A stretch of 62,251 nt of DNA from Meridianimarinicoccus zhengii (GTDB lineage Bacteria > Pseudomonadota > Alphaproteobacteria > Rhodobacterales > Rhodobacteraceae), in assembly GCF_003254465.1 (NCBI RefSeq), contig NZ_QDFI01000020.1, forward strand, positions 1 to 62,251, written 5' to 3'. The first letter of the stretch is position 1; each line of letters begins with the position of its first letter. Shown piece after piece: positions 2,928-32,408 of the stretch. The notes below the pieces were generated by a model. The model was not told the DNA's origin. It searched no databases and saw nothing but the letters and a program-made list of their open reading frames with translations. Position numbers and translations under genes: made by a program.

Positions 2928-2971
2928 GAGTCATACGGGAGTCATATGAAAGTCATACGCGAGTCATACGT
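2928..2971. repeat. Four 11-bp direct repeats, GTCAT core (array A)
   Basis: Four contiguous 11-base units start at 2928, 2939, 2950 and 2961; consensus RAGTCATAYGN. The 7+4 layout (RAGTCAT followed by four looser bases) repeats once per DNA helical turn. The array lies in the cobA-cobB gap. The same kind of array recurs at 7856-7932 and 32365-32408. Direct repeats of 11 bp are the site geometry of OmpR/PhoB-family regulators, but the identity of any binding protein is inference. Confidence 0.85.
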
Positions 2972-7178: not shown

Positions 7179-7250
7179 TACACACAGGATTGGGGCGGGT
7201 GTCCCGCCCCTGGGCCCGCAAGGGGCAGACAGGGCAGGGACGTGACACCG

Positions 7251-7835
7251 ATGATCGCCGAGTTTCGAACCAGTTTCGTGAGAGAACCCAACAGCCTGCG
7301 GCACCACCCGGCGCTGGTGCTGAACGCGGACTACCGGCCGCTGTCATATTACCCGCTATCGCTGTGGCCATGGCAGGAAGCGGTGAAGGCGGCCTTCCTC
7401 GACCGTGTTGATATCATTGCGGAATACGACAAGGTCGTGCGCAGCCCGTCGACCGAGATCCGAATACCGTCGGTGGTTGTTCTTCGGGAGTATGTGAAAC
7501 CTCAGAAGCGCGTGGCATTCACGCGCTTCAATTTGTTTTTGCGGGACGAATTCTCGTGCCAGTATTGCGGAGCGACGGGGGATCTGACGTTCGACCACGT
7601 GGTGCCGCGGGCCCGCGGGGGGATCACCAGCTGGGAGAACGTGGTGGCCGCCTGCGGCAAGTGCAACCTGAGCAAAGGGTCCAAGACCTTGAAACAGGTG
7701 GGCTTTTCCCTGCGCAAACCGCCGCGCCAGCCGGGGGCGGAGGAGCTGCGGAACCTTGGCCGCAAGTTCCCGCCGAACCACCTGCACCACACCTGGCTCG
7801 ATTTCCTGTACTGGGACGCCGAGCTGGATCACTGA
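7251..7835 (+). CDS. HNH endonuclease family protein
   Basis: 194 residues. The C-terminal half holds an HNH zinc-type nuclease domain: zinc Cys pairs C103/C106 (CQYC) and C135/C138 (CGKC), with H116 of FDHVVPRARGG and N130 of SWENVV in the expected order. The N-terminal half has LVLNADYRPLSYYPLSLWPWQEAV, found in a widespread chromosomal HNH family that usually stands alone. The role is unknown; DNA repair or house-keeping is more likely than defence. The ATG at 7251 is preferred because AGGGCAGGGA ends 10 bases upstream; a GTG at 7242 is in frame but too close to that site. Confidence 0.87.
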   Translation: MIAEFRTSFVREPNSLRHHPALVLNADYRPLSYYPLSLWPWQEAVKAAFLDRVDIIAEYDKVVRSPSTEIRIPSVVVLREYVKPQKRVAFTRFNLFLRDEFSCQYCGATGDLTFDHVVPRARGGITSWENVVAACGKCNLSKGSKTLKQVGFSLRKPPRQPGAEELRNLGRKFPPNHLHHTWLDFLYWDAELDH

Positions 7836-7855: not shown

Positions 7856-7932
7856 CATATGAATCGCATATGACTCCCATATGACTTTCGTATGACTCCT
7901 GTCGGAGTGTTGTAAGAGTTCCGTAGGAGTCG
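7856..7932. repeat. 11-bp direct repeats, GTCAT core, inverted (array B)
   Basis: Four 11-base units start at 7856, 7867, 7878 and 7889 (plus-strand consensus CRTATGAMTCC, the reverse complement of array A). Three weaker units with a GAGT core continue in the same phase to 7932. The array begins 21 bases after the HNH stop and marks the left edge of the AT-rich island. It has the same unit length and core as the arrays at 2928 and 32365 but points the other way. Confidence 0.8.
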
Positions 7933-8204: not shown

Positions 8205-9287
8205 ATGAAAATGAAGATAGACAATAACAACTATAGCATTTTGGAGATAATCCAAATGCTCGATCGGCGAGAGCTAATAGTTAATAAGGACTATCAGAGG
8301 GGCTCGGGATTATGGCCTGTAGCGGCTAGAGCATTCTTCATTGATACAATAATGGAGAGTTTTCCATTTCCTAAAATTTACATGTATGAATATCTTGATA
8401 AACCCTCTCGTGGAATACAGAGAGAGATTGTAGACGGCCAGCAACGAATTAACGCGATTGTTGGATTCTTCCGCGGCGAGTTTCCCTTGCAGGCTGAGGG
8501 TCCGAATAAGGGCTTAAAATATAACGATCTGGACGATGAACACCAAGAAAAGTTTCTTTCGTACGCCGTGTCTGTTGACGTAATTAGAAATGCTGGGCGC
8601 GCTGATATTCTACAGATGTTCCGAAGAATGAATGCCTATACTATGCCGCTCAATGATGCTGAAAAGCGTCATGCTGGTTTTCACGGCGCCTTTAAATGGT
8701 TTGTTAACGAGCTGGCAGATGAGCTAAGCGAGTTCTTTGTTGAGTTTGGGGTTTTTACAACAAAACAAATCACTCGAATGGGTGATGCTAGTTTAATAGC
8801 TGACTGGATACTTGCGCTCGAGCGAGGTGTGATTTCCACGAGCGCATCCGATCTTAATGCATTATATAAAAAGTATGACGAGGATTTTGAGAATGCAGCA
8901 CTATATCGCGAAATTATACTCAGCACAATTGATTATATAACGGAAAATCTTGGCGAGTTGAGGAGGTCACATATGATGAAGCCATATGCTTTACATTCTC
9001 TGTTTACGGCACTTGTGCATAATCGATATGGTATCGCTGCAATCGAGAGAGAATGGAAAGTTTGGCCAATTGGAGACTTCGCCGATAGCAACGTTCCTGT
9101 TGCATCTGTTCTCGGCGAAATGGCTGCTGCTCATGAAGGCAAAGATACTGAGGGACCCCACAAAAAGTATGTTTGGGGATGCTTGAGTACTACAGACCGC
9201 CGCCCTCGACGTACTGCTCGAGTCGCGGCTATCTTAAGGGAGTTAGGCGCAACTGTACCGGAAATTGTGGATGCCGAGCTCGCTTAA
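8205..9287 (+). CDS. DUF262 (GmrS/ParB-like) domain protein
   Basis: A 360-residue protein with an N-terminal DUF262 domain: DYQRGSGLW (residues 29-37) and the nucleotide-linked motif REIVDGQQRINAIV (73-86, core DGQQR). DUF262 proteins such as GmrS and SspE use NTP hydrolysis to control a nuclease in anti-phage defence. Here the usual C-terminal DUF1524 HNH nuclease is absent; residues after about 200 look helical. The partner gene overlaps by 17 bases and encodes a HEPN-like protein. The gene is AT-rich and full of codons rare in its neighbours (ATA, TTA, AGA), a sign of recent transfer. The ATG at 8205 is chosen where family similarity begins; a GTG at 8160 is in frame. Confidence 0.82.
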   Translation: MKMKIDNNNYSILEIIQMLDRRELIVNKDYQRGSGLWPVAARAFFIDTIMESFPFPKIYMYEYLDKPSRGIQREIVDGQQRINAIVGFFRGEFPLQAEGPNKGLKYNDLDDEHQEKFLSYAVSVDVIRNAGRADILQMFRRMNAYTMPLNDAEKRHAGFHGAFKWFVNELADELSEFFVEFGVFTTKQITRMGDASLIADWILALERGVISTSASDLNALYKKYDEDFENAALYREIILSTIDYITENLGELRRSHMMKPYALHSLFTALVHNRYGIAAIEREWKVWPIGDFADSNVPVASVLGEMAAAHEGKDTEGPHKKYVWGCLSTTDRRPRRTARVAAILRELGATVPEIVDAELA

Positions 9288-9918
9288 CAGCATTCGCAAT
9301 CGATTCCTCAGACGACTTAAGGTGGTCGACAGTGCCTTCGAGCGGCACCTTGTTTCGCCAGTTGTGAAATTTCGCTCGGATCGTTACGCACTGCAAGACG
9401 GTTTAGTCTCCCATCTTTGGCAGTACTGGAGTGCTTTTTGCAGGGAAGTTGTAATAGCTTCGGCCCAAGGCGCTATTACTAAATCTGGCGTAATGACAAC
9501 ATCGCCGTTTGCGGAGCTAACGCAAGCTGAGATAGCCTACGTCGCGATGAGGCTTGCCAAGGGTAATTCGATTGGGCGGATACGGGCATTAACTGGTTCG
9601 CACCTTGAGCCAACTTGGGGTGACATATCAAAACTAAGTTTGATTGCCGGGGGTATTGATAGTTCAAATCGATCTGCGTTACTTACAGCCTTTGGAGTCG
9701 CATCAAGTATTCAAGACTTACAGCTGTGCCGAAATGCTTGTGCGCATGTCAATCTCGAGAGTTACCGAAGGTTCCGTGGTGCAAGAGTTAGGTATATTCC
9801 ACAAGGGTTTGCACACCCTTCAGAGTTGATGTATTGGGTCGTGCCCTCCACAGGAGACTTTGCTTGGCGCTCGTGGATGGACGAATTGGAGATTATTTCA
9901 GATTTTGCGATAGTATAA
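9271..9918 (+). CDS. HEPN-like putative ribonuclease, partner of the DUF262 protein
   Basis: A 215-residue, mostly helical protein. Residues 154-159 are R-N-A-C-A-H, which fits the HEPN ribonuclease motif R-x4-6-H with a polar residue after the Arg, placed at the end of a predicted helix (LQLCRNACAHVN). HEPN proteins are RNA-cutting effectors in many toxin-antitoxin and defence systems. The assignment rests on this motif, overall helical content and context, so it is an inference. The gene overlaps the DUF262 stop by 17 bases, implying coupled expression, and shares its low GC. There is no signal peptide or membrane segment. An upstream in-frame TTG exists at 9265. The 150 bases after its stop hold nothing recognisable. 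Confidence 0.6.
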   Translation: MPSSLNSIRNRFLRRLKVVDSAFERHLVSPVVKFRSDRYALQDGLVSHLWQYWSAFCREVVIASAQGAITKSGVMTTSPFAELTQAEIAYVAMRLAKGNSIGRIRALTGSHLEPTWGDISKLSLIAGGIDSSNRSALLTAFGVASSIQDLQLCRNACAHVNLESYRRFRGARVRYIPQGFAHPSELMYWVVPSTGDFAWRSWMDELEIISDFAIV

Positions 9919-32243: not shown

Positions 32244-32364
32244 GTCCGGGCGCTCCTCACCGGCGCTCTGCGCGCACGCCGTTTGAACCGTCCCTCGAAC
32301 AAGCCTCCGCAGGCGCCTGACCCCGCGCCACCTGTGCGCCGTGGGGGTGGTGAAGGTCCGACGA

Positions 32365-32408
32365 GAGTCATATGAGAGTCATATGCAATTCATATGGGAT
32401 TCATATGC
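32365..32408. repeat. Four 11-bp direct repeats, GTCAT core (array C)
   Basis: Units start at 32365, 32376, 32387 and 32398, consensus GAKTCATATGN, same phase and strand orientation as array A. The last unit ends four bases before the murB ATG at 32413, so the array occupies the ribosome-binding region and probably the promoter zone of murB. The open frame through it would give a repetitive peptide, but murB homology starts only after the array. Confidence 0.85.

Follow-up and report, generated by a model that had tools for sequence, protein, structure and literature searches.

The 62,251-nucleotide contig NZ_QDFI01000020.1 of Meridianimarinicoccus zhengii (assembly GCF_003254465.1; Alphaproteobacteria, Rhodobacteraceae), which was analysed at its full length and is called the window here, carries two overlapping genes that encode a DUF262 protein and a smaller HEPN-like protein (Table 1). 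The cassette of two genes probably serves as a switch for phage defence and has a known relative. An initial annotation, made from the letters alone, had proposed the two genes as a candidate defence module in which a DUF262 protein that lacks the DUF1524 nuclease is coupled to an HEPN-type ribonuclease (RNase). For the second gene, ATG 9271 is a likelier start than the TTG six nucleotides upstream, since relatives begin in a similar way (MPTS, MATS, MPIS) and it yields the same 17-nucleotide overlap as in loci L007-L011 (L numbers denote individual loci throughout). Numbered from this ATG, the second protein carries RNACAH at residues 154-159, exactly as annotated, and the overlap suggests translational coupling of the two genes. 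The low GC content against a high-GC background, also remarked on at the outset, was reproduced: 0.44 for the DUF262 gene and 0.49 for the second gene versus 0.68 for the window, and 0.41 and 0.46 at third codon positions (GC3) versus 0.80 in the HNH-type gene upstream.

Table 1. Positions of the two genes, their motifs and nearby features in the window (position 1 is its first letter).
Feature	Position	Strand	Remarks
DUF262 protein gene (GmrSD_N, ParB/Srx-type), 360 amino acids	8205-9287	+	ATG 8205; PF03235 match
HEPN-like protein gene, 215 amino acids	9271-9918	+	ATG 9271 likely start; frame open from TTG 9265
Gene overlap, 17 nucleotides	9271-9287	+	same overlap in L007 and L008-L011
DGQQR codons, proposed nucleoside triphosphate (NTP) pocket motif	8433-8447	+	in the DUF262 gene
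RNACAH codons, proposed HEPN catalytic motif	9730-9747	+	in the second gene
HNH-type endonuclease gene	7188-7835		flank of the pair
Tandem 11-bp repeats of type CATATGACTCC	2931-2970	-	
Tandem 11-bp repeats of type CATATGACTCC	7856-7895	+	
Tandem 11-bp repeats of type CATATGACTCC	32357-32407	-	

The first protein matches the Pfam family GmrSD_N (PF03235, E 5e-15), and its layout comprises an NTPase-like N-terminal domain and a helical C-terminal half. DGQQR lies at residues 77-81 (VDGQQR 76-81), FRRMN is also present, and neither DUF1524 nor HNH occurs among its Pfam matches at E up to 10; apart from GmrSD_N itself, that list holds just a weak DndB match (E 0.039), and the motif and the missing nuclease thus stand as first described. 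In the 17 DUF262 proteins aligned (alignment A5), DGQQR is invariant and the DH..P motif is absent from every member. PADLOC ranks NsnA best for the window protein (E 2e-30), followed by PD-T4-2_A (E 3.2e-13). Aligned structurally with VIA-align, the predicted DUF262 model found its best match in BrxU residues 1-431, domain by domain over 289 residues with a root-mean-square deviation of 12, while a PDB sequence search with the DUF262 profile returned a single weak DUF262 chain (9jfl_B, E 0.093). The likeness is thus to a BrxU that is missing its C-terminal part; the HNH domain of BrxU lies beyond residue 431.

The R-x4-H motif of the second protein, which fits the R-x4-6-H pattern of the HEPN superfamily, is conserved throughout its family: R154, N155, A158 and H159 (RN..AH) are invariant in all 18 aligned second proteins, the window included (alignment A4). 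Conserved together with them are E113, T115, W116, G117, W50, W53, S47, N133 and P183, the further motifs of the window protein being E113-P-T-W-G-D118 and W50-x2-W53, and the tyrosine of RX4HXY (H+2) is found in none of the 18. Profile searches of the window protein against Pfam (HEPN models included), PADLOC and NCBIfam gave no match, PHROGs gave one row at E 0.33, and a PDB sequence search with the family profile gave none. Across the 18 second proteins, weak matches appeared to the abortive-infection family Abi_2 (two members, best E 0.017), to PHROG 2158 'abortive infection resistance protein' (two members, best E 0.0083) and to the PADLOC models PDC-M71B (E 0.021) and Cas13b (E 0.08), one member each. 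Structure prediction gives a helical fold. When it was aligned with 855 chains in VIA-align, HEPN toxins or HEPN-MNT complexes took the first five places among the PDB entries, and two more HEPN domains came 11th and 12th in the list of 50. Foldseek alone returned no significant match. The HEPN fold expected by the initial annotation thus finds some support in the helical prediction and the best VIA-align matches, and none in Foldseek; among motif conservation, gene linkage and fold, it is the predicted fold that forms the weakest support.

The Foldseek result would suit a different division of labour, in which the damage comes from the DUF262 domain, of ParB/Srx type, and the second protein, lacking catalytic activity, is a helical adaptor or a DNA-binding subunit; ParB/Srx NTPases are able to nick single-stranded DNA (PMC12839542; this and the other papers are cited for the passages drawn on here). 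We consider this improbable. Despite a mean identity of 30% (lowest 20%) among the 17 paired second proteins, RN..AH stays invariant, which argues against a non-catalytic role, as do the HEPN toxin entries that head the structural matches. A natural variant bears on the damage attributed to DUF262: in Escherichia coli S1-JOR-02-A (L073, 5001-5652) the DUF262 gene is intact, and the HEPN-like gene has 652 rather than 651 bases with no coding sequence annotated. The latter is probably frameshifted, this being a single case among the three E. coli loci opened and possibly a sequencing error, and an intact DUF262 gene beside an apparently broken partner is evidently tolerated there.

Linkage of the two genes extends well beyond the window. 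The pair is kept in 17 loci, the window included, with the DUF262 gene directly upstream of the second gene in all of them; the spacing is a 17-nucleotide overlap in six (the window and L007-L011) and -1 to +9 nucleotides in eleven. With the motif invariant in 18 of 18 proteins and the pair present at 17 loci, both RN..AH and the pairing are beyond chance. Members include a Brevundimonas metagenome-assembled genome from the reference-genome scan (L002), a locus from the same class as the window (L007, Alphaproteobacteria) and, in the phage collection, Escherichia phage vB_EcoM-689R6 (L005). Scanning viral contigs with the DUF262 alignment yielded 14 loci, and the second gene lies directly downstream in all 13 that are testable, the contig of L014 ending at the DUF262 stop codon. 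The scan with the second protein yielded eight loci, seven on contigs already found plus L023, which starts at the first codon of the second gene and hence leaves its upstream side out of view. Both scans were seeded with paired members and are valid for close relatives only; a first scan with a two-row alignment had returned no relative, and the four-row alignments found them. Both genes also occur in the same nine of 5426 complete E. coli genomes. The conservation of R154 and H159 and the linkage in other genomes, on which the initial annotation had hinged, were thereby borne out.

Across the 17 pairs, identities among the DUF262 proteins track those among the second proteins (correlation of the identity matrices, r 0.91), and none of 2000 permutations reached as high a value, shared ancestry not being corrected for. 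Judged from sequence, this matched divergence shows the two genes to move together, and it says nothing on physical contact. The module is rare in genome searches: 295 genomes of the family held its own copy plus two weak partial matches (E 0.008, uncounted), 385 genomes of the class its own copy and L007, and 398 genomes of the phylum its own copy and, inside a 56-amino-acid frame, a stretch of 43 residues that matches the second protein (L030, G817:C33 101935-102063), perhaps the remnant of a decayed module. Plasmid searches with the window second protein, its E. coli relative or a PD-T4-2_B homologue gave no match. Directly after the Brevundimonas pair lies a zeta-toxin/AAA_33-like gene (L002, 6615-7124) that is not seen in the window.

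The two-gene cassette is mobile and often prophage-borne. Its GC content is below that of the contig in 12 of 13 viral-contig loci, the exception being L009 (0.58 versus 0.57). The pair sits between the integrase gene intE and icd in each of the three E. coli chromosomes opened and likewise in the phage record L005, within what we take to be an e14-like prophage. Among ten neighbouring proteins scanned, nine have a Pfam match: the module adjoins a phage portal gene in L010, L011 and L023, an integrase in L013, a cytosine methylase and Vsr in L009, an ImpB/MucB polymerase in L020, a peptidase S24 protein in L021 and a CI repressor in L019. P2-like phages have been reported to concentrate anti-phage systems, old and tin among them, in the region that separates gpA from the portal gene gpQ (PMC9122126), and the portal-adjacent copies in L010, L011 and L023 would occupy such a hotspot if their contigs are P2-like.

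Prophage location, together with the overlapping two-gene layout and the toxin-like predicted fold, would also be expected of a toxin-antitoxin addiction module, in which an HEPN RNase toxin and a DUF262 antitoxin are kept for stabilising the prophage or island rather than for phage sensing. The E. coli variant fits this as well, as loss of the HEPN-like gene with retention of DUF262 is what one would predict for a costly HEPN protein; that same single case argues against the HEPN protein as the antitoxin. We nevertheless regard an addiction module as unlikely. Menshen and Dazbog no longer conferred phage resistance once their DUF262 gene was lost, and the DUF262 domain of SspE is a sensing NTPase (PMC10952713), while some copies, those adjacent to portal genes, lie where phages carry defence genes (PMC9122126). 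Moreover, toxin-antitoxin and defence roles can coexist.

The pairing of DUF262 with an HEPN-type protein is not new as an idea, since PD-T4-2 is already such a pair: it is listed under both DUF262 and HEPN in a review table (PMC10952713) and confers protection against T4 both in K-12 and in its native strain (PMC9519451). Like the window pair, PD-T4-2 consists of two genes, DUF262 first and then a small R-x4-H protein (RDNAAH in the homologue L032), and the DUF262 halves are homologous (hhalign probability 97.8, in addition to the PADLOC match to PD-T4-2_A). These likenesses could mean that the window pair is a direct, divergent member of PD-T4-2 with identical working, which we hold to be highly improbable. 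PD-T4-2_B is absent from the PADLOC matches of all 18 second proteins at E up to 10, and hhalign of the second-protein family against one PD-T4-2_B homologue covers 17 columns at E 0.49, with no detectable sequence relation. Further, NsnA outscores PD-T4-2_A for the window DUF262 protein, and L032 has DGLQR and a second protein of 169 amino acids, as against DGQQR and 215 in the window.

Other known systems share one half of the pair each. GmrSD and BrxU have a DUF262 domain with DGQQR, as in the window, but they carry a DUF1524/HNH nuclease, fused or as GmrD, whereas the window protein is devoid of it and its neighbour is HEPN-like. Menshen, to which we take NsnA to belong, is likewise related through the best PADLOC model of the window DUF262 protein. 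Its DUF262 protein has a predicted OLD nuclease as its partner (PMC10952713), whereas the window partner is HEPN-like (the other neighbours, read by eye, are HNH-type and pyc-like). The 20 commonest enterobacterial GmrSD clusters have HNH/DUF1524 or two-GmrS layouts and no HEPN partner, as far as the passages drawn on go (PMC12373910). On the side of the second protein, HepT-type entries are the top structural matches and share the R-x4-H motif; MntA adenylylates the tyrosine of RX4HXY in HepT (PMC7641770), but the window family lacks this tyrosine throughout and has DUF262 rather than a nucleotidyltransferase as its partner. Known associations of HEPN proteins with ParB-type domains, by fusion or within an operon, include ParB (DUF262) and HNH in VNG7073 and a Ribo L-PSP-HEPN operon with ParB (PMC3710099), and in the sections of that paper drawn on here no entry for a free-standing DUF262 and HEPN pair of the window type was noticed. 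Nor was the window family found described among the matches listed from the open-access literature searched, as far as those sources were covered.

More distant DUF262 relatives appear with other partners. On plasmids 84 records matched, 40 of which were listed and eight opened (identity 26-34% in those eight): the partner is an RN..AH protein in two, a protein kinase gene lies downstream in three, and neither is present in three (L036, L037, L039). The two RN..AH partners, both downstream of DUF262, carry RNACAH on a Rhizobium plasmid (L038) and RNQAAH on a Glutamicibacter plasmid (L033). Their profile, built from these two sequences only, aligned with the window second-protein family at probability 90.9 and E 1.1e-6, the 153 aligned columns taking in the motif; the L038 partner also has a weak Pfam match to HEPN_RiboL-PSP (E 0.083). 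Kinase-annotated genes directly follow DUF262 on two Asticcacaulis plasmids and one Pseudanabaena plasmid (L034 4268-5119, L035 4191-5081 and L040 4352-5233; Pfam-confirmed for L034), and a phosphoadenosine phosphosulfate reductase-family gene is nearby in both Asticcacaulis records. The kinase is possibly another swapped DUF262 effector. On a Pseudoalteromonas plasmid, a 197-amino-acid protein without a Pfam match (L039, 2346-2939) overlaps the start of the DUF262 gene and has, by eye, a nucleotidyltransferase-like GS...DSDFD stretch. A broader reading, which we advance tentatively and place a little short of even odds, is that the GmrSD/BrxU sensor may be a general chassis whose DNA nuclease was replaced more than once by effectors acting in trans: at least two HEPN-like lineages, of which PD-T4-2_B is one and the window family together with the L033/L038 type another, plus a protein kinase in certain plasmid relatives.

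In the window itself, the pair is flanked by the HNH-type endonuclease gene and by a pyc-like gene on the opposite strand, both named by eye from their translations. The HNH-type gene is common (36 of 41 genomes, its own included), yet in none of the 29 relatives' loci read does the pyc-like gene lie within about 1.5 kb of it, and no module or gap sequence was found beside the flank genes of congeners (five on the HNH side and six on the pyc side, the search covering these flanks only). The site is therefore a variable chromosomal site without a definable precise insertion junction. Promoter and terminator scans gave signals near chance level. Separately, one of the CATATGACTCC-type repeat arrays of Table 1 sits in the gap upstream of the module, and the three-unit pattern of this type has 25 matches, some of them overlapping, in the genome of the window versus none for the reversed control.

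The reading that we favour, with a probability of roughly 0.6, is that the pair is a mobile, largely prophage-borne anti-phage module in which an NTP-dependent DUF262 sensor without DUF1524 controls an HEPN-fold RNase in trans. Control in trans is the simplest account because the nuclease domain is missing and an HEPN-like protein is encoded with every testable close relative. In GmrSD, BrxU and SspE a nuclease is under the control of the DUF262 domain, which binds NTPs and hydrolyses them (PMC10952713). What has been established directly for the module comprises gene pairing, overlap, motif conservation, matched protein divergence, mobility and predicted folds, and the model builds on these. 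By analogy with the three systems, the GmrSD/BrxU-type DUF262 protein would sense infection in an NTP-dependent manner, the cue perhaps being modified or foreign DNA. It may hold the HEPN-like protein in a complex and, on infection, release or activate it; the putative RNase would then cut RNA through R154 and H159, and this cutting would stop the growth of the phage or of the infected cell. As a candidate, the defence pairing first proposed for these genes is supported by motif, linkage and fold, with the RNase and defence roles as its predicted part.

If this reading is true, the module would represent a further defence family, unnamed by PADLOC models, often carried on prophages and clearly split, by prediction, into a DNA-sensing NTPase and an RNA-cutting effector. 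Seventeen natural pairs with invariant residues are available for testing it, and it would offer a way into the mechanism of PD-T4-2. Should the chassis reading hold as well, the module would amount to type IV-like restriction in which DNA is the cue and RNA the target through which it kills.
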